Below, one piece after another: positions 1-35,141 of a stretch of 64,000 bases of DNA. Source of the DNA: Nostoc sp. WHI (GTDB taxonomy: Bacteria > Cyanobacteriota > Cyanobacteriia > Cyanobacteriales > Nostocaceae). The first letter of the stretch is position 1. Each line of letters opens with the position of its first letter. The notes under the pieces were generated by a model. The model was not told where the DNA came from. It worked only from the letters and a program-made list of their open reading frames with translations, and did no database searches. A program made the position numbers and the translations under genes. The DNA lies in assembly GCF_015714725.1 (NCBI RefSeq), contig NZ_WBKM01000248.1, positions 1-64,000 on the forward strand, written 5' to 3'.

Positions 1-395
1 ATAGCGTTGTCTACCGATCCATCGAGATCACGTAGTTTGTATGAAACATTTATATTTGTTACACCCGTAGTATTCAGATGAATTAGCAGAAAGGGTGCAT
101 CTGCTGTACCTGAACCATTAAGGGCAACTACTGGGTTAGAGAGTTCAAACTCCGCAACACCACCAGTGTTAAAAGTATTGGGATTAGTTTGGCCAGCATT
201 GACATCTACAGGACTAGATGTGCCATCAGCAACAACTGTTTGCGGATCTACACCTGTAGCAGATGTTAAAGTGTCTCCACGATAGCCAATAATGCTGGAA
301 ACACCGCTCCAATCATCATCTATTGTGATTAGTGCTGTATCTGTCCAATCTTGTGTAAAGGCACCTTCAGCCAAGTTATGGTATTGATTCCCCAT
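1..395 (-). CDS. N-terminal part of a large secreted nuclease/adhesin-type protein (runs off the window)
   Basis: An open frame reads leftward from ATG at 395 to the window edge, giving about 131 residues with no stop. It starts MGNQYHNLAEGAFTQDW and continues with short Asp/Thr/Asn-rich stretches such as DDDWSGVSSIIGYRGD, NTFNTGGVAEFEL and NPVVALNGSGTADAPF. This opening is familiar from very large cyanobacterial exported proteins that carry endonuclease/exonuclease/phosphatase (ExeM/NucH-like) or calcium-binding repeat regions further on. There is no classical signal peptide, which fits export by a type I system with a C-terminal signal. The catalytic part lies outside the window, so the enzyme class is inferred from the N-terminus alone. 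Confidence 0.65.
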   Translation of the reverse strand, partial: MGNQYHNLAEGAFTQDWTDTALITIDDDWSGVSSIIGYRGDTLTSATGVDPQTVVADGTSSPVDVNAGQTNPNTFNTGGVAEFELSNPVVALNGSGTADAPFLLIHLNTTGVTNINVSYKLRDLDGSVDNA

Positions 396-780
396 TTTGG
401 TAAATCTCCAAGTATTTAAAACTTTGTCAGGATAATGCTTGTTTCGGTTCTTTAGTTGGTTAATAACACCATCCATTCTCTAGAGCAGTTAAGCTGTACT
501 TAACTTCCAACACTTATTGCTGAAAACACTAATGCAGCACGGCGTAATTCATAATTCAAAATGAATACAGCGCAAGCGTTTCATTAATTTTGAATAGGTG
601 GTTTATTTGTACCGTAACTTAACTAGTCAAAGAGTTTTGGAGCGGATTCATAATTTCTGCAAAAGTTATGCTCTGTATCCTTTACAAAAAGTGATTTTCA
701 TGCACAGCATAATTATTTAGATTTTTAGCTACTTGCTTTTTAAGTATACATAAGTCAACTATAAGTAAGTTTAAGATTCG

Positions 781-827
781 ATAAAGGGCGTTGAAAAATC
801 TAAATATGATTTAGCAACGCCCTTTAT
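781..827. terminator. 13-bp perfect stem-loop downstream of the alpha/beta hydrolase gene
   Basis: ATAAAGGGCGTTG at 781-793 is the exact inverted complement of CAACGCCCTTTAT at 815-827, with a 21-nt loop. It lies about 125 bp past the stop of the minus-strand hydrolase and could end its transcript. There is no clear T-run, so a repeat element is an alternative. The rest of the gene-free stretch 396-952 is AT-rich and shows nothing else I can name. Confidence 0.4.
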
Positions 828-952
828 TGAATTTAGTTAAGCCTCGACACTGAAAAATCCAGTTACACAATTATGGTTGAAATTAGATGAGTGAAAAAGA
901 CAGCTATGCAGAAGGCAGGAAATTAGATGAGCTTTAACTACTGAAGAAAATA

Positions 953-1849
953 CTAATTCAGCAAAGGCAAAAATTGGCGAATTAACCCAATTGTCACTGC
1001 TGGTAATTCCAACTGCGGTGTTAGCCCCACATTTTCCAACTGTTGAAAAAATCGGATCGCTTGAGGATTCATTTCGGCGAGGCGACGACCAATTGAGGGG
1101 CCTGTAAATTCTGACTTTTTTCCCCAAATAATAGCAGTGGGAGTTGTTAGTTGTTGAATGTAAAGGGATAAATCGAAGCACAAATCACCACGGACAAAAG
1201 ACAGTGCTGCATACTCAGCATTAGGCTGTTGGGCAGATTCTAGGTAAGCATCTACAATTTCTTGGTAGACTCGATTAGACTGGGCAAATTGCCGTTGTTC
1301 TAAAAAGCTGCGAATACCGCCACTGGTGGCTACTCCAGTGCTGTATAATAAGCGGTCAACAATGGGAACACTGACTAACTGGGCAAAAAAGCTGCGGGAG
1401 TAGTCTTCTCCAAAGTCGGAAAGTCCGGCGGGGGTAGTGAGAATTAAAGACTTGAATAAATCAGGATGAGCGATCGCTACTCGAATTATAAATGCTGCGG
1501 TCAGAGAAGAAGCGATCGCTGTTACGGGTCCCGTACAAGTCTGCTCAAAAAATTCCCGAATCGTTGTCAAATAATCTTCAATCTTATAACTTTGCGCCGG
1601 ATGCTCAGACCTACCCCAACCGATCAAATCTGGCGCAATAACCCTATATTCGGCGGCAAAGGCCGGATAAACTTTCGACCACTCATAAGCAGAAGATCCA
1701 CCACCAAAGCCGTGCAAGAATACCAAAGTTTCTTGGTCATCTTTGGCACTCACATCATCCTGCCAAGGTGAACCAGTGGCAGTATAGTACACCATTTTAC
1801 CTAGTGAGGTCATTACGGATCGTTGTTCAAATCCCAATGGCTGAAACAT
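953..1849 (-). CDS. alpha/beta-fold hydrolase
   Basis: A protein of about 298 residues with the alpha/beta hydrolase layout. The oxyanion segment is HGFGGGSSAYEW, followed by VIAPDLIGWGRSEHP. The usual nucleophile elbow G-x-S-x-G is replaced by AIASSLTAA, where the middle Ser is the likely nucleophile; this variant occurs in cyanobacterial and plastid members of the family. The ATG at 1849 (MFQPLGFEQ) is preferred to the in-frame start at 1903 because the fold begins there and the extra 18 residues look like leader. The substrate cannot be read from the sequence. It is transcribed alone. The stretch 1850-2301 upstream is AT-rich and holds no gene I can support. Confidence 0.8.
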   Translation of the reverse strand: MFQPLGFEQRSVMTSLGKMVYYTATGSPWQDDVSAKDDQETLVFLHGFGGGSSAYEWSKVYPAFAAEYRVIAPDLIGWGRSEHPAQSYKIEDYLTTIREFFEQTCTGPVTAIASSLTAAFIIRVAIAHPDLFKSLILTTPAGLSDFGEDYSRSFFAQLVSVPIVDRLLYSTGVATSGGIRSFLEQRQFAQSNRVYQEIVDAYLESAQQPNAEYAALSFVRGDLCFDLSLYIQQLTTPTAIIWGKKSEFTGPSIGRRLAEMNPQAIRFFQQLENVGLTPQLELPAVTIGLIRQFLPLLN

Positions 1850-2301
1850 AAGTATTTTTTGTTCCCTGTAGTGATTAATTGGCATCAGTGACACTCGCAT
1901 CACCTTGGAATGATTACTTGTTTAGTTCAAACTCTCCACTCATTGATTATTATCGGCGAACTAATCACTCTAAGACATCTCACTATCGTCATATTAAGTA
2001 GATATAAAATCACTGGATTGCTTGTAAAGATTTGGTGATTTTTTCTCACAGAAAACAGTGGATTAACGTTACAATTACTGTTTTTTAAGGTTTTTACGTG
2101 GTAACGGGTATCACTCAAGCGTGCATCTAGGATGAGTTTTTATGATAATCTATGAAGAAAGTCATAAATACTTTTTAACGTCAAAAATAATCAAAACGCT
2201 AATTTTAATGAGCTATTAATTGTAGTTATACATATATAAAAAATAGCTGTTGATGTATTATTAATCTGATTCTTTTCTAAGTAATAGTAAGGCGGGATGT
2301 C

Positions 2302-2910
2302 ATGGTAAAGCAGGCTATTCTTCAATCAAACAAAGTACCAAGGATTGGAGACGCTAAATTTGCGCTTGACAACTTTAATATACAAAACGAAATCACAACT
2401 TCAGCTTGGCGTGGCCAGTCTGAGTCAGCGATTGAGGCTGCCGGAGTGACTGTACCTACTTGTATTAGTTTAGACTTAGAAGACTTAAAGTGTTTTGAGG
2501 CAGTAGAGCGTCAGTATGAGCGCTGGGGAGTCATTTTTCATAATTGTCTAGCAATAGAGCCATCAAATCCAGCATTTCCAACTCATTCAGGGCTAACAGT
2601 TTTAATAGGAGCGCCCAAAAGCGGATTTTTAGAAGCTACTTTCTTGCATCCGGTTAACTCGGTTGGTGTCTTTGTCACCAGTTCGCAACGGCTAGTACTT
2701 TCCGCCTACGATAGCGATCGCCAATTGCTGGGACAAAGTATACTACCAGGCGCTAATCTTGCCAATTCTGACTCGGCAATTTCCCCCAATACCTTATTAT
2801 CTATAACTGCGAATAACATCCACAGCGTTACCTTCTGTGCTTTTGATGGTCAATTCACCCTCAATAACTTTCGTTTTTGTCTTGAACTTAAAACGTTAAA
2901 AACTCAGTGA
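2302..2910 (+). CDS. Conserved cyanobacterial protein, beta-rich, unknown function
   Basis: A 202-residue protein without signal peptide or membrane segment. The second half is rich in alternating hydrophobic strands and Gly/Asn turns (GVIFHNCLAIEPSNPAF, GFLEATFLHPV, VGVFVTSSQRLVLSAYD, IHSVTFCAFDGQFTLNNFRF). This is the look of a jelly-roll or carbohydrate-binding beta sandwich, of the kind found in exported cyanobacterial proteins. I recognise it only as a cyanobacterial hypothetical family. AGTAATAGTAAGGCGGG just upstream is a plausible ribosome-binding region. It stands alone between unrelated genes. Confidence 0.6.
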   Translation: MVKQAILQSNKVPRIGDAKFALDNFNIQNEITTSAWRGQSESAIEAAGVTVPTCISLDLEDLKCFEAVERQYERWGVIFHNCLAIEPSNPAFPTHSGLTVLIGAPKSGFLEATFLHPVNSVGVFVTSSQRLVLSAYDSDRQLLGQSILPGANLANSDSAISPNTLLSITANNIHSVTFCAFDGQFTLNNFRFCLELKTLKTQ

Positions 2911-29237: not shown

Positions 29238-29894
29238 TTAAATTTCTACCGGATGTTGCCCATAATAGGGCAAAGCCTCTGACCAATTAGGAGATTTGCC
29301 CTCTTGCCAATCGAGATTAGCTAGTTCCAAGATACTCGTCACCGTCGCTGCTAACCCAGATTTGGCTTCAATTAGCTGATCACTGGTATTCCAATTAGCT
29401 AAAGTTTCTTGCCATCCTTCTGGTGTCATAACTGTATCTGGTAAACACGCTCTTAGTCCAGAAGCATCTGGCTCAAACTGATAAATAGCAACAAAAAATT
29501 GACCCCGTTGTGCTGGCATTTCCACAGCAATAGTTTTTGGATTTTGACTTTTACCGGCTTCTGACCAAGCTACTGCTGCTAAAGTTGAAATCGCAAATAC
29601 AGGAATATCTAATTGTTGTCCCAAAGTACGAGCGGTGACAACACCAATACGAGTACCCGTAAAGCCGCCAGGGCCTTTTGCAACTGCGATATAAGACAAA
29701 TCTGCCCAAGTTTGGGGTTTGATAAATTCAATTAAATGTTGATGTATTAAGCTAGATAAATCACGTCCCAAATTCCAAACTTGAGAGCGAGTTTCGCCTG
29801 CAAAATTACTAATTGCTAGTCCTAATTCGGGAGTGCTGGTGTGGAGTGATAAAGCGTATTTTGTGGTTGTGAGGTGTTTTAGTTCTGTGGTCAA
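29238..29894 (-). CDS. tsaB: TsaB, tRNA threonylcarbamoyladenosine biosynthesis
   Basis: A 218-residue ASKHA-fold protein that pairs with TsaD in making t6A at position 37 of ANN-decoding tRNAs. Visible: SLHTSTPELGLAISN (strand 1), LIHQHLIEFI, YIAVAKGPGGFTGTRIGVVTA (the family signature) and PVFAISTLAAVAW. The start is TTG at 29892-29894, preserved in the coding logic because the family begins right there (MTTELKHL). The first codons and upstream DNA are duplicated at 31126-31232 (see that entry). Confidence 0.88.
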   Translation of the reverse strand: MTTELKHLTTTKYALSLHTSTPELGLAISNFAGETRSQVWNLGRDLSSLIHQHLIEFIKPQTWADLSYIAVAKGPGGFTGTRIGVVTARTLGQQLDIPVFAISTLAAVAWSEAGKSQNPKTIAVEMPAQRGQFFVAIYQFEPDASGLRACLPDTVMTPEGWQETLANWNTSDQLIEAKSGLAATVTSILELANLDWQEGKSPNWSEALPYYGQHPVEI

Positions 29895-29956
29895 AGTTAA
29901 TTAAAATATATATTTTTATAGAGTTAATGTGATTTATTCAAGCATATAATATCAAG
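29854..29956. repeat. Direct repeat A: tsaB start and upstream DNA, duplicated at 31126-31232
   Basis: About 103 bp covering the first 13 codons of tsaB and 60 bp upstream recur in the same orientation at 31126-31232 with about 90% identity (for example GTGAGGTGTTTTAGTTCTGT, then GGTCAAAGTT). The two copies bracket a MITE and the coiled-coil gene. Confidence 0.8.
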
Positions 29957-30120
29957 TTCGGCAAATCACTTACGATATGTCATTGCGAATGCAACGTTCG
30001 CGCTTGCGTCTCGTAGAGAAGTGAAATGTTCGCGCAGCGTCTCGTAGAGAAGCAATCGCAAGGTTTTGGGATTGCCGCGCGACCCTCGCAATGACATAAG
30101 TATTAAGTCGAACATGATAT
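29949..30120. mobile_element. MITE-like element with TATGTCATTGCGA inverted repeats
   Basis: Perfect 13-bp inverted repeats TATGTCATTGCGA (29976-29988) and TCGCAATGACATA (30086-30098) extend imperfectly outward to ATATCAAGTTCG (29949) and CGAACATGATAT (to 30120). The centre holds two copies of GCGTCTCGTAGAGAAG. No coding capacity. It fills most of the gene-free stretch 29895-30253 upstream of tsaB. Confidence 0.7.
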
Positions 30121-30253
30121 AACATAGCGGTTCTTAATTGAAAAGTATAATCAACTACTTTTATAAGGTTTTACTGAATAATTAAAAAGTAACAAATCAG
30201 TTGAGTAACAACCAGTCAAACGGGTTTTTTGCAAGGTTTGTGAGAGATCGCAG

Positions 30254-30892
30254 TTAAGATGGGGGATTTGGATTACCGCCTTGCTGTCTCAGTAGATAGT
30301 CTAAAACTCGGTCAATTCGCTCTAAGGCAGCACCCGTAGTAAGTTTAAACTCCTGAAACTGAGATTTTTGTTCCTCATAGTTTCGGTCAAGCCTGATCAT
30401 GAGTGCTTCTAATCGTTCAGTTCGTGCCTTTGTTTCCTCTATCTCACTACCTGTCTTTGTAAATAGGCGTTGTGTGTGAGTGATAAAACTATCAAGCTTA
30501 TCAGAAACTTGGTCAACATTTCCCCCTATCGGGTCAACACGTGTCCCTAGTTGATCAAGGTGAAATTGGGTACGGTCTTGTTTGATGGTCAACTGATCAA
30601 GGTGAAATTGGGTACGATCTTGTTTGATGGTCAACTGATCAAGGTGAGATTGAGTACGGTCTTGTTTTATGGTTAACTCGTCAAGCCGCACCCCTATCTG
30701 ATCAAGATGAACTTGGGTACGGTCTTGTTTGATGGTCAACTGGTCAAGATGAACTTGGGTACGGTCTTGTTTTATGGTTAACTGGTCAAGCCGTCTGCTT
30801 GTTGATTCTCCGTAGCTGGCAGTAGACACTAGCAACTGCTTAACAGTTTCGAGTTCATCTTCTACATTGTCTAGTCGCTGTGCGTTGGTCAT
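30254..30892 (-). CDS. Coiled-coil protein with 14-residue tandem repeats
   Basis: A 212-residue protein. Residues 35-125 are five to six copies of a 14-residue repeat LDQLTIKQDRTQ(V/F)H, encoded by a 42-bp DNA repeat at about 30542-30790. Fourteen residues are two heptads, so the repeat should form a regular left-handed coiled coil. The C-terminal 85 residues continue as helix (SDKLDSFITHTQRLFTK, ETKARTERLEALMIRLD) without repeats. Membrane segments and enzymatic motifs are absent. Similar DUF-type coiled coils are common in cyanobacteria and vary in repeat number. It lies between the two tsaB-derived direct repeats. Confidence 0.7.
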   Translation of the reverse strand: MTNAQRLDNVEDELETVKQLLVSTASYGESTSRRLDQLTIKQDRTQVHLDQLTIKQDRTQVHLDQIGVRLDELTIKQDRTQSHLDQLTIKQDRTQFHLDQLTIKQDRTQFHLDQLGTRVDPIGGNVDQVSDKLDSFITHTQRLFTKTGSEIEETKARTERLEALMIRLDRNYEEQKSQFQEFKLTTGAALERIDRVLDYLLRQQGGNPNPPS

Positions 30893-30927
30893 ACTGTTTT
30901 CTCTTGGTTGGCTTCTTTATATTATAT

Positions 30928-31044
30928 GATCGCCTTATCGCCTCCCTAATAGGACTACGCAAAAACCCTCTCAAACTCTCATTCCTCCGTGATCTCTGCG
31001 TCCTCTGCGGTTCGTTTTCCGGATCGCCTTATCGCCTTCCTAAT
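30928..31044. repeat. Short direct repeats flanking a CTCTGCG-type repeat
   Basis: GATCGCCTTATCGCCTCCCT at 30928 and GATCGCCTTATCGCCTTCCT at 31022 bracket GTGATCTCTGCGTCCTCTGC (30992-31011). Part of the gene-free stretch 30893-31231, which also contains the second tsaB-derived repeat. Confidence 0.55.
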
Positions 31045-31125
31045 AATAACTTTTGTTAGTTGTGGGACGCTTAAAAATTCTCTTGTCACCCATCGTTATC
31101 TCCATCTGTATAATACATTAGCCTC

Positions 31126-31232
31126 GCGTATTTTTTGGTTGTGAGGTGTTTTAGTTCTGTGGTCAAAGTTGATTAAAATATTGATTTTTTAGAGTTGACT
31201 TGATTTATCTATTCAACCACATCATAGTCAAG
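31126..31232. repeat. Direct repeat B: truncated duplicate of the tsaB 5' region
   Basis: Same orientation and about 90% identity to 29854-29956. The minus strand again encodes TTELKHLTT after a TTG, but the frame then diverges, so it is a gene fragment. Its outer end coincides with the first base of the terminal CRISPR repeat at 31232. Confidence 0.75.
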
Positions 31233-31929
31233 TTTCCATCCCCGTGAGGGGAAGTGATTGAAAAACTGTTCCAGAATGGAGGTTCGACACTATCTAAGGC
31301 GCAGTTTCCATCCCCGTGAGGGGTAAGTGATTGAAAAACTCACGTAACAATTGAGAAGAAGGAAGACAAAGATGGGTTTCAATCCCCGTGAGGGGAAGTG
31401 ATTAAGTAAACTTTACGAGTGTCGGTCAATATGTGATCATAATTGCATATTGTTTCCATCCCCGTGAGGGGAAGTAATTGAGTAAACAATTCTGGACTGG
31501 CAACCCCGACCTCAATGCTGAATAGTTTCCATCCCCGTGAGGGGAAGTGATTGAGTAAACGATTTTGATGACCGTAGACCTGAACACTCAAGGATTTAGT
31601 TTCCATCCCCGTGAGGGGAAGTGGTTGAGTAAACAAGAATACAGTGTTGTAGATATTGTATCCAGTCCAGAAGGTTTCCATCCCCGTGAGGGGAAGTGAT
31701 TGAGTAAACTGAGAGAAATGAAACTCGCGGATTGTCGAGCAGGGGGGTTTCCATCCCCGTGAGGGGAAGTGATTGAGTAAACTGGGACGTATAACTGTAT
31801 TAAATACTGTAAACAACAAAAGTTTCCATCCCCGTGAGGGGAAGTGATTGAGTAAACTGTAACGTTTAGTTGCGTCTGGGAGACTTCTAAAAGGTTTCCA
31901 TCCCCGTGAGGGGAAGTGATTGAGTAAAC
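31232..31929 (-). CRISPR. Orphan CRISPR array, 10 repeats and 9 spacers
   Basis: Repeats of 36 bp start at 31232 (35 bp), 31304, 31376, 31452, 31525, 31599, 31674, 31747, 31822 and 31894. Spacers are 36-40 bp, all different. On the minus strand the repeat begins GTTTACTCAATCAC and ends GGGGATGGAAAC, with the hairpin CCCCTCACGGGG in the middle. The GAAAC end is the usual crRNA-sense 3' end in cyanobacteria, so transcription should run leftward. The three leftmost repeats are degenerate (TTGAAAAAC ends, an extra T, GTTTCAATC), as expected of the leader-distal end. No cas gene lies within the window. Confidence 0.95.
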
Positions 31930-32236
31930 CCCACCCTTCTAGAACCCTTACTGTGACTGGTCTTCAAAGGTCATTTTCGAGTGGGTCTAATTTACTTGTC
32001 AATAAGCCTAAATTATTGACAAAAATCTAATAGTACATCCGCTCAAACGCTTACACAGCAGCTTGTCGAGGGGGTCAACGAAAGAATCAGGGTTTGAGCG
32101 ATCGCCATACCCCCCCCACAAAACTTACGTGTCCAAAGTCAAAATAAATACTTTTGCTTTCATTAGGAAACTTGTGATTCAATTGTCAAGGTTCTGTTAC
32201 TAATGGACATGAACTTAACATACTACTGTTAAATTG
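31930..32236 (-). promoter_or_regulatory. Probable CRISPR leader
   Basis: The gene-free stretch on the side of the perfect repeats, upstream of the array in the inferred sense. It contains a perfect 10-bp inverted repeat TTGTCAATAA (31996-32005) / TTATTGACAA (32013-32022) with a 7-bp spacer, about 70-90 bp from the first repeat. This may be a regulator or integration-factor site. The leader assignment is an inference from repeat degeneracy. Confidence 0.55.
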
Positions 32237-32485
32237 TCAAGTCGGCACTAATTCACCAGGACGCAACTTCGACCACTTACCCATTTCCCGCTTAAAGCTC
32301 AGACAACCAACAACATCCCATTCCATTTCAATTACATCATCTTTAGTCCGAATGTTGACATTGATAGAAGGTTCATTCGGGTCAAAATCTGGTGTTTCAG
32401 TCAAGTGAGGCTGTTGGTGCTGCCCTTCAACGGCATGATAGGTAAAACAGCTGTCTACATAGTGGCAGTTCACGCAAATACACAT
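32237..32485 (-). CDS. ycf34: Ycf34 family iron-sulfur protein
   Basis: An 82-residue protein conserved in cyanobacteria and some plastids. It has CICVNCHYVDSCFTYHAVE with three clustered Cys near the N-terminus, then INVNIRTKDDV, EWDVVGCLSF with a fourth Cys, and KWSKLRPGELVP. In Synechocystis, Ycf34 binds an iron-sulfur cluster and affects photosynthetic electron transport. Four Cys are present here, consistent with a cluster. It is transcribed alone, divergent from the CCA-adding enzyme gene, with a shared 86-bp intergenic region. Confidence 0.92.
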   Translation of the reverse strand: MCICVNCHYVDSCFTYHAVEGQHQQPHLTETPDFDPNEPSINVNIRTKDDVIEMEWDVVGCLSFKREMGKWSKLRPGELVPT

Positions 32486-32571
32486 AATAGAACCAACTCC
32501 AGACGCCTTTATTGTTAATCTAGCTTAAGCCCAACTGTTATTCATGAGTTGCTGGGTTGATTTTTATTACA

Positions 32572-33849
32572 ATGCGTGAATCAGTTTTTTCTACCCTCGC
32601 TCCCGAAAATTGGCCTTTTAGCTTGGAATGGCTGCCACAACCTGCTTACATGGTAGGTGGCGCTGTCCGAGATGCCATCCTGGGCAGAACTCGTGAATAC
32701 CTGGATCTAGATTTTGTTATACCATCTAACGCGGTAAAAGTTGCCAGAGCGATCGCTCATCATTACCAAGCTGGTTTTGTGTTACTTGATCGAGAACGAC
32801 AAATTGCCCGTGTGGTTTTTCCCCACGCTACAGCTGATTTTGCCCAACAGGAAGGAAATAGTTTAGAAGTTGACTTGCACAGACGAGATTTTACAGTCAA
32901 TGCGATCGCTTATAATCCGCATACGCAAGAAATTATCGATCCTCTGCAAGGTGATGCAGACTTACAACAGGGTATTTTGCGAATGATATCACCCGCCAAC
33001 CTAGAAGATGACCCTTTGCGGTTAATGCGTGCTTATCGCCAAGCCGCCCAACTAGGTTTTACCATTGAGCCAGCTACCCAAGCCGCAATTCGTTCCTTAG
33101 CATCACATATCAGCAAAGTTGCCGCAGAACGAGTTAGGGTAGAAATCGGCTATCTGCTGGGAAATTCTCAGGGTACTCCCTGGATAACAAGTGCTTGGGA
33201 AGATGGTTTAATTGCCCCTTTCTTCAAAAATGCCACTCGTGAAAGCTTAATCAAACTAGCAGCAGTTGACAATGCAGCTGTTTCACTAACCCAAAATTGG
33301 CCACAATTAGGGACACAATTACAAGAGTATGTCCGCGATAGTATTAAAACCACTTGGTTAGGTATTGCTAAACTTGCTTGTCTTGTTAACCCAAATCCAG
33401 AATTAGCAGAGATAGAATTACAGAAACTAACCTATAGTCGTGCCGAAATCCGGGGTGTAACCACTGCGATAAAAGTGTTACCACAGCTTCAAGTAATCGA
33501 TATGTCATTGCGAGAACAGTACTTTTTGTTCTATAACGCAGATATTGTTTTTCCTGCTACAGTAGTGCTAGCTGTAGCATTTGATAATTTGGTAGAGGCG
33601 ATGTCTGGCGACAAGGCGCTGCGATCGCTTATCTTGCCATTTTTGATCAACCGCTACCTGAACCCTGATGATCTGGTCGCTCATCCCACTCCCTTAGTGA
33701 GCGGGAAGGAATTAATTATAACATTAGATATTCCGGCTTCGCCAATAATAGGCAAACTGCTCTCAGAAATTGCCGTAGCGCAAGCTGAGGGGAAAGTCTC
33801 AACATCCACAGAGGCGATCGCATTTGCACGTCAGTTACTTGAGGGTTAA
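32572..33849 (+). CDS. CCA-adding tRNA nucleotidyltransferase (or A-/CC-adding enzyme)
   Basis: A protein of about 425 residues of the class II poly(A) polymerase/CCA family. The N-terminal catalytic domain has YMVGGAVRDAILGR and LDLDFVIPS (GG and the catalytic DxD), then DLHRRDFTVNAIAYN, the RRDFT motif, DPLQGDADLQQGILRMI and DPLRLMRAYRQAAQLGF for template-like nucleotide selection. The C-terminal half is helical and more variable. Cyanobacteria may split CCA synthesis between two such enzymes; which nucleotides this one adds cannot be read safely. Start is ATG 32572; TTG 32557 would add five residues. Confidence 0.85.
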   Translation: MRESVFSTLAPENWPFSLEWLPQPAYMVGGAVRDAILGRTREYLDLDFVIPSNAVKVARAIAHHYQAGFVLLDRERQIARVVFPHATADFAQQEGNSLEVDLHRRDFTVNAIAYNPHTQEIIDPLQGDADLQQGILRMISPANLEDDPLRLMRAYRQAAQLGFTIEPATQAAIRSLASHISKVAAERVRVEIGYLLGNSQGTPWITSAWEDGLIAPFFKNATRESLIKLAAVDNAAVSLTQNWPQLGTQLQEYVRDSIKTTWLGIAKLACLVNPNPELAEIELQKLTYSRAEIRGVTTAIKVLPQLQVIDMSLREQYFLFYNADIVFPATVVLAVAFDNLVEAMSGDKALRSLILPFLINRYLNPDDLVAHPTPLVSGKELIITLDIPASPIIGKLLSEIAVAQAEGKVSTSTEAIAFARQLLEG

Positions 33850-33965
33850 ATATACCTGAGCAATTTGCTTGATGATTATGATGATAATGCCACTATTGCC
33901 AGCCCAAAGAGTGAGATGATTAGGGAAATTTTATGAGCGATCGCAAAGCTAAAAAAGGAATAAAT

Positions 33966-35141
33966 ATGATTGTGAAGTCGAGAAAAAAACTCAAATTTTT
34001 AGTGATTGGATGCTTTTTATCCGCTTTGATACTAAGTCTTGCCCTGGTATCTCATGATAGCAGTTTTGCAGCCGCAGCAGAAAAAAGTTCATTAGTTCGC
34101 TTACAGAATTTACAAAAGATCGTTGTCAATTCCAGCTTCATCAGTCCTTTGGTTGAACTATTTGGTAACGTATTTATTGGTAAAAAAGTTTTTGTTGCGT
34201 CTAATACTACACTTAGTGCAGATCCGGACACTCAAATCTGTCTTGGTAATGAAACAAACCTTCAGGACAACATTTTATTATTAGCATTACGAAATACCCC
34301 AGCTCCTTCATCCAACTGTGGAAAGCGCTCAAGCAGTACCGGAGAACGAGTCAGCATTGCACATCAAGCAAAAATAAAGAATTCCAAAATTGGTAACTTT
34401 ACATTTATAGGTTTCCTTGCTGATTTAAACAATGTTGTTTTAGAAGATGGCGCTTTTGTATTGCATGGTGCAAAGATTTCAAACGTACGCATTGGCAAAG
34501 ACCGTTTAGTGCCAATTGGTGCTGTCATTACAACCCAAGCTCAAGCCAACGCTCTATCATTAAAAACGAAAGCTAACGCTGAATTTCAGGAGGAGGTGTT
34601 GAAGGTAAATGAAGAGTTTGCCGAACACTATGGTCAACTTTATAAAAAATCGGGTTTTGATGCGGTGACAGGAATTGGTATTGCACCTAAAACGTCCTGG
34701 AATTCCAATCCAGTTAAACCAACTATTGGACAGAATGTGCAGTTTGAAGAATTTACTCGAATTGTTGGAAATGTCCAACTAGGTAGTAACAGCGTAGTAG
34801 GTAGACGAACCTCAATTCGTGCGGACGAAGGCTCGCCCATTGTCATTGGTGACAATGCGAAGATCGAAGATCGTGTTACTTTCCACGCTTTGAAAGGTAC
34901 TAGTATTCGTATTGGTAAAAACTTGAACACAGATGACAATATTGTTTTTCACGGCCCATTGGAGGTTGGCGATAACCTGACTATTGAAGACGACGTTATA
35001 TTGTTTCGCTCCAAGGTTGGCAATAATGTAACCATTGGTACCGGAGCGATTGTCGTTGGTGTAACTCTTCAAGATGGAGTCAAAGTTCCAGAAGCAGCAG
35101 TTGTTACAACTCAAGAGCAGGCAGATGCATTAAAAGCTTGA
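33966..35141 (+). CDS. Exported tandem gamma-carbonic-anhydrase-like left-handed beta-helix protein
   Basis: A 391-residue protein: an N-terminal export segment (FLVIGCFLSALILSLALVS, residues 11-29), then two left-handed beta-helix domains (about 55-230 and 250-391), each resembling archaeal Cam. Domain 2 has IRADEG (R285, D287, E288 = Cam Arg59, Asp61, Glu62), H307 (His81) and H329 in VFHGP (His122), but D324 in place of His117. Domain 1 has H133 in IAHQ (His117), but L106 and K138 in place of His81 and His122. In Cam trimers, His81/His122 come from one subunit and His117 from the next, so the fused halves could complete one site. Start 33966 follows AAGGAATAAAT; 33933 is an alternative. Activity is unproven. 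Confidence 0.75.
   Translation: MIVKSRKKLKFLVIGCFLSALILSLALVSHDSSFAAAAEKSSLVRLQNLQKIVVNSSFISPLVELFGNVFIGKKVFVASNTTLSADPDTQICLGNETNLQDNILLLALRNTPAPSSNCGKRSSSTGERVSIAHQAKIKNSKIGNFTFIGFLADLNNVVLEDGAFVLHGAKISNVRIGKDRLVPIGAVITTQAQANALSLKTKANAEFQEEVLKVNEEFAEHYGQLYKKSGFDAVTGIGIAPKTSWNSNPVKPTIGQNVQFEEFTRIVGNVQLGSNSVVGRRTSIRADEGSPIVIGDNAKIEDRVTFHALKGTSIRIGKNLNTDDNIVFHGPLEVGDNLTIEDDVILFRSKVGNNVTIGTGAIVVGVTLQDGVKVPEAAVVTTQEQADALKA

Follow-up and report, generated by a model that had tools for sequence, protein, structure and literature searches.

A tandem γ-carbonic anhydrase-like protein of Nostoc sp. WHI whose two domains carry complementary parts of the Cam active site

The window, the whole stretch of 64,000 nucleotides analyzed here (source genome 8.56 Mb; completeness 99.5%, contamination 6.6%), encodes at 33966..35141 on the forward strand a double γ-carbonic anhydrase (γ-CA)-like protein of 391 amino acids (an in-frame alternative start at 33933 would yield 402). 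Two Cam-type β-helix domains in tandem, termed half 1 and half 2, follow a hydrophobic, positively charged N-terminus. Residues 1–38 (33966..34079), which comprise KSRKK, a hydrophobic stretch, and SSFAAAAEK, form a probable signal peptide by sequence and hydrophobicity. In the family alignment (see below), 108 rows have residues ahead of the domain, and 104 of these contain a hydrophobic 15-mer there (mean Kyte-Doolittle value of at least 1.6). From this N-terminal hydrophobicity, the double γ-CA-like protein appears to be exported. In Pfam, Hexapep alone scored above its cut-off. The best NCBIfam match was CcmM (NF053794; 181 bits, below the curated cut-off of 550), and the carbonic anhydrase model NF040597 scored 167.8 bits (below the curated cut-off of 380). 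A sequence search of the PDB retrieved Cam, CcmM, and relatives.

All parts of the gene discussed here lie on the forward strand. The left-handed β-helix of half 1 (residues 53–200; 34122..34565), delimited by the AlphaFold2 model and structural matches, is followed by a C-terminal helix (residues 202–229; 34569..34652; AlphaFold2 model), a linker (residues 230–243; 34653..34694), and the left-handed β-helix of half 2 (residues 244–389; 34695..35132), which was delimited by PDB sequence match, AlphaFold2 model, and alignment and has no Cam-like C-terminal helix. A preliminary description of the locus had proposed two left-handed β-helix halves, each resembling Cam, which was confirmed by the fold model and by structural and PDB sequence matches. 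Alignment with Cam also bore out its residue assignments. In half 1, H133 (34362..34364) occupies the position of His117, and L106 (34281..34283) and K138 (34377..34379) those of His81 and His122. In half 2, H307 (34884..34886) and H329 (34950..34952) occupy the positions of His81 and His122, and the variable D324 (34935..34937) that of His117; the stretch R285-A-D287-E288 (34818..34829) provides the equivalents of Cam Arg59, Asp61, and Glu62. Beyond that description, half 1 was found to hold N98, Q100, and D101 (N98-L-Q100-D101; 34257..34268) and, in its C-terminal helix, N215, which correspond to Cam N73, Q75, D76, and N202. Neither domain contains His81, His117, and His122 together; the chain as a whole does, with H133 from half 1 and H307 and H329 from half 2 as the putative metal ligands.

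Pattern and profile searches identified 109 different members of this protein family, the window protein included, in several phyla. Its close relatives (clade A; 54–76% identity) come from other cyanobacteria, one Burkholderiales, one Chloroflexota bin, and a Deinococcus deserti plasmid. A distant set (26–35% identity) is frequent in Nostocales and, according to record titles, also present in Chloroflexi, Actinomycetota, Gammaproteobacteria, other Pseudomonadota, Cytophagales, Hymenobacter, Planctomycetaceae, Eremiobacterota, and a Methanoperedenaceae archaeon; for metagenome bins, such titles may be wrong (one reads Klebsiella pneumoniae). Wide distribution as a rule was rejected, since counts of genomes per group showed the family to be scattered. 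Matches at a set threshold were present in 27/388 genomes of the window's order (one of them split into two frames), 13/386 of its phylum (the split one included), 34/200 of the order of G703 (two doubles), 5/201 of the phylum of G705 (four doubles), 1/150 of the family of G707, 2/148 of the order of G704, 3/118 of the phylum of G708, and 56/119 of the order of G714 (six doubles); doubles were called by model coverage, the query genome is counted in each group, and scoring was confined to 4–15 candidates in each genome.

Several members have features of their own. The clade A copy on D. deserti plasmid 3 (L232:4944-6086; WP_012694801.1) carries the product name "carbonate dehydratase," shares 64.3% identity with the window protein across 92% of the latter, and shows the same split of residues; it is a fellow family member, known here by that product name alone. 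A planctomycete member (L138:79-1701) has N-terminal repeats (FFAY...GGV) ahead of the double domain, and six archaeal rows (L168 and L213–L217) have 39–41 additional C-terminal residues; in L168 and the fragment L218, the extension holds a hydrophobic stretch resembling a membrane anchor. The gene at L056:4453-5624 (G051) is split into two overlapping frames, and the sole match in L014 (G048) covers residues 325–390 at 73% identity. C92 and C118 of the window protein (34239–34319 in the window) are conserved in 29/29 clade A rows; outside the clade, 70 of 81 rows are gapped at C118 and none has cysteine there, and a disulfide between the two would fit an exported protein. Among the papers listed in searches of the PMC literature, a body that mostly excludes subscription papers, none had a title or abstract opening describing a two-domain γ-CA with a split site, and no account of dGCA1 (9lin) was found.

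Upstream of the double gene lies a gene on the same strand (32557..33849) that we take, from its sequence, to be cca-like; DNA similarity to other Nostoc ends near its 3′ end. Stretches within 29247–33837 match the Nostoc loci L131 and L133, as well as a congeneric locus, L046, at 81–89% identity, and the contig thus belongs with Nostoc. In L131 and L133, a distant double gene plus a small partner gene adjoin cca, and in L046 a distant double gene does; the window, compared over 29247–33849, has the clade A gene in that place beside cca. Neither the distant double form nor the partner gene was found in the window's genome. Judged from the one flank that is shared, one form has probably been exchanged for a distant homologue at this site. 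Further upstream, a CRISPR-like array (31231–31940) comprises 10 repeats (GTTTCCATCCCCGTGAGGGGAAGTGATTGAGTAAAC in several copies) at a spacing of 72–76 nt.

Of 80 loci, 54 have the small partner gene next to the double gene in the same orientation (55 ORFs of 135–234 amino acids; 54 downstream and one upstream of the double gene, from 145 nt of overlap to a gap of 299 nt), in records of Nostocales, Chloroflexi, Pseudomonadota, Actinomycetota, and Bacteroidota (examples are L097:9122-9676, L109:9353-9973, and L090:7334-7882). A hydrophobic stretch near the start is present in 52 of the 55. Judged by this arrangement, the partner and the double γ-CA gene are a two-gene module. It is not universal: among 38 selected genomes the partner was found in 11, which led to rejection of the partner as a constant part, and at E ≤ 0.01 it was absent from 16 clade A carriers (the window's genome included), six archaeal genomes, and four Eremiobacterota/Planctomycetes genomes among the 38. 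Its motifs (W, Y-E, and R-V-R-A...S-x-W-S) may resemble those of a fibronectin type III domain. No match that counts was obtained in Pfam (10 proteins; two rows far below cut-off), NCBIfam (four proteins), or PADLOC (one protein), and a PDB profile search returned nothing convincing.

Conservation of the divided residues was assessed in a family alignment of 140 ORFs, reduced to 109 distinct ones; its 110 rows contain the window gene twice (P0001 and L009), each covers more than 300 of 420 model positions, L091 and L150 are truncated at the N-terminus, and redundancy leaves ∼23 effective sequences at 70% identity. Eight fragments among 83 matching ORFs had been omitted from the initial comparison set. 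H133, H307, H329, N215, R285, D287, and E288 are present in 110/110 rows; Q100 is found in 109 (one gap), D101 in 108, and N98 in 97 (12 aspartates and one gap). Independent variation of the three histidines, looked for as a refutation of their common role, did not occur (0 exceptions in 110 rows). The conservation of R285, D287, E288, and H307 is partly selected, because these residues were contained in the motifs of the pattern scan; H133, H329, N215, Q100, and D101 lie outside them. An Asn202 equivalent is kept in half 1 only, and the complementary positions of the three histidines, Asn73, Gln75, and Glu62 have been vacated almost throughout. Histidine occurs in no row at the His81 (seven gaps) and His122 positions of half 1 and in a single row at the His117 position of half 2; in half 2, the Asn73 position is never asparagine and the Gln75 position never glutamine (one asparagine). 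The Glu62 position of half 1 is glutamate in three of the 110 rows and a gap in 70.

The split is imperfect at three further positions. Arginine is retained at the R59 position of half 1 in 23 rows and aspartate at its D61 position in 25, and aspartate occurs at the D76 position of half 2 in 41 (each of 110). These cases fall mainly in clade A, to which the window protein belongs (23/29, 19/29, and 28/29 rows, respectively); the window protein itself has S84 and D86 at the R59 and D61 positions of half 1 and D302 at the D76 position of half 2. The three histidines and N73, Q75, and N202 are unaffected. The acidic loop with Glu84 of Cam has no counterpart in half 2 in the alignment with Cam; the E84 position is K310 in the window protein, lysine or arginine in 29/29 clade A rows, and glutamate in 61 of the 81 others. 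Control domains retrieved by profile (n = 68; one domain per locus, with one row gapped at the three histidines and L229 taken from a tandem protein) were intact: all three histidines were present in 67, R59 in 67, D61 in 68, E62 in 67, N73 in 66, Q75 in 67, and D76 in 66. N202 was present in 28/28 of a smaller control set, which was chosen by motif and is thus partly selected. The complementary conservation, together with the intact controls, therefore suggests that one ancestral site was divided, with little lost overall except the acidic loop.

The division extends to the surfaces of the helices. The hexapeptide phase, read manually, served to assign faces and coil positions; it places R59, D61, E62, H81, and H122 on or just after face b, and N73, Q75, D76, and H117 on face a, which precedes it. 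Over four coils, the mean information of outward residues was 3.48 bits for face a and 1.61 for face b in half 1, and 1.60 and 3.41 bits, respectively, in half 2. When the a/b labels were swapped per coil, a contrast of this size was attained in 1/256 arrangements (four coils), 4/1024 (five), and 20/4096 (six), and, with the catalytic positions removed, in 1/256, 10/1024, and 80/4096. Also without the catalytic positions, charged residues made up 1.4% of face a and 21% of face b in half 1, and 32.5% of face a and 8.1% of face b in half 2, compared with 6% (a), 8.6% (b), and 34% (c) in control domains. Thus, face a of half 2 looks solvent-exposed, and face b of half 1 partly so; the latter, at 21% charged and 36% hydrophobic, is only partly exposed in character. 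Judged by conservation and charge, the split matches the Cam trimer interface as published: one face stays conserved and uncharged in half 1, the other in half 2. This surface pattern argues against a homotrimer with three metal sites.

AlphaFold2 models of single chains placed both halves of the window protein confidently (pTM 0.85; block pLDDT in half 2 only about 71–81 for residues 251–340), and a distant member, L097 (28% identical), gave a pTM of 0.84. Of the Cam-type fold, the left-handed β-helix, the hexapeptide repeats, and the C-terminal helix (after half 1 only) were found. The top structural matches of half 1 were CcmM structures, and structural alignments span mainly half 1. The half 1 helix is joined to the start of half 2, and the spacing from N215 to W245 is 29 or 30 residues in 110/110 rows; the tail after half 2 has a median length of two residues (39–41 in the six archaeal rows). 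In Cam, according to PMC4519908, the metal is bound by H81 and H122 of one monomer and H117 of its neighbor. PMC8000050, the residue numbers of which were matched to those of Cam in the present analysis, describes, for three modeled trimers and one crystal structure, R59 pairing with D76 of the neighboring chain and contact between N-terminal residues of one chain and the C-terminal end of the next. In an engineered γ-CA, as reported in PMC12648627, the equivalents of E62 and E84 touch the residue before the neighbor's N202 equivalent. Mapped by alignment onto the double protein, each of these inter-subunit pairs, as described in those sources, is split alike, with the first member in half 2 and the second in half 1.

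Cam from Methanosarcina thermophila (1thj, 1qrf) shares with the double protein the β-helix, the C-terminal helix, the total of active-site residues, and a metal located, in the double protein putatively, at a domain interface. Cam, however, forms a homotrimer in which every chain has the full set of residues and three sites result, whereas here the residues are divided over two nonequivalent domains of one chain; Cam also has the acidic loop that half 2 does not. The N-terminal domain of CcmM (3kwc, 7o4z, 7d6c), which is the best NCBIfam match, provides the top structural matches of half 1, and likewise has no long acidic loop, is a single domain with all three histidines, and the double protein scores far under the CcmM cut-off. 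CcmM is a cytosolic carboxysome protein with RuBisCO-binding repeats; no such repeat was detected in the double protein by Pfam. A parallel to a divided site is provided by CA1/CA2/CAL of plant mitochondrial complex I, in which, as described in PMC7567890 and PMC7447434, loss of histidines in some subunits leaves one complete site between two of them. These are separate chains in a closed trimer within complex I, whereas the present case concerns one two-domain chain in prokaryotes.

In a tree of 27 representatives without control domains, the half 1s and the half 2s each formed one group (support 100/99). When 15 control domains were added (16 had been found; single-domain genes and the archaeal repeat proteins L219 and L229), support was 94/69 for the half 1 group and 100/99 for the half 2 group. 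One group per half fits a single fusion or duplication before the family spread. The archaeal L219 (G1543; 325-2511, reverse strand) is an ORF of 729 amino acids that comprises three similar Cam domains, none of which has lost any of the three histidines, and possibly a single-chain γ-CA trimer; L229 starts with two Cam domains of the same kind (all three histidines present). Since these repeated archaeal domains keep all histidines, fusion alone does not bring about the split.

The divided residues, their conservation, the face pattern, and the confident two-domain models are direct observations, and we consider it probable that they reflect an exported γ-CA-like enzyme in which two Cam subunits are fused, with one interface within the chain, one metal site, and likely catalysis on CO2/bicarbonate. 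Two adjacent subunits of an ancestral Cam trimer would have been joined into one chain, half 1 representing the subunit that contributes His117, Asn73, Gln75, Asp76, and the Asn202 helix, and half 2 the neighbor that contributes His81, His122, Arg59, Asp61, and Glu62. The halves would meet in cis at a single Cam-type interface, holding one metal ion, presumably Zn or Fe, with its catalytic surround, and would probably serve, in an extracytoplasmic location, to interconvert CO2 and bicarbonate. Of the ancestral ring, the remaining subunit and two interfaces would have been lost, in line with half 2 having no C-terminal helix and with its unused face being charged, so that the resulting fold would amount to two thirds of a Cam trimer. 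One composite metal site per chain, as the preliminary description had suggested, is thereby supported by face conservation, surface charge, the constant linker, and the published trimer contacts. Homotypic trimer rings, (1,1,1) and (2,2,2), were not adopted as the leading interpretation, since a complete site would exist in neither and the faces required for them have drifted.

A composite site could also be real but formed in trans, half 1 and half 2 of different chains pairing in a domain-swapped dimer or a larger ring. Such pairing would produce identical conservation and face patterns, and known γ-CAs are oligomers; because single-chain models place both halves confidently, the spacing between them is a constant 29–30 residues, and face a of half 2 is exposed in character, we regard it as unlikely. 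That the histidines are relics in a structural or sensor protein without metal seems most improbable: although neither half on its own retains the whole site, the three histidines persist in 110/110 rows while the complementary positions drift, and the surface pattern matches. It is conceivable, though not likely, that a metal is bound at the composite site of a protein that is no carbonic anhydrase and whose role is instead to sense bicarbonate or to convert a different small substrate. Some γ-CA relatives have little or no measured activity according to PMC12648627 and PMC7447434, the former also describing an enzyme that is nearly inactive despite having all three histidines, and the E84 position is lysine or arginine in the window's clade. 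On the other hand, N73, Q75, N202, and E62, which PMC4519908 ties to CO2 hydration in Cam, are each kept in the fitting half, and, according to the same source, the acidic loop is missing from T. elongatus CcmM, which is nevertheless active.

PMC8000050 describes γ-CAs as requiring the trimer for function, since each site sits between two subunits. We lean toward the view that the fused, single-site enzyme proposed above represents an old, widespread, exported γ-CA family freed from the obligate trimer, with two thirds of the ring, a single site, and ligands complementary between domains. The proposed one-site, two-domain γ-CA architecture is well supported. If it is true, H133 and H307/H329 would be equally essential, and separated halves would complement each other. 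The family would then be a natural case of subfunctionalization inside one chain, by which a symmetric oligomer became an asymmetric single-chain enzyme, and it points to predicted exported proteins with a patchy distribution across bacterial phyla and archaea, together with a conserved partner gene of no matched family.
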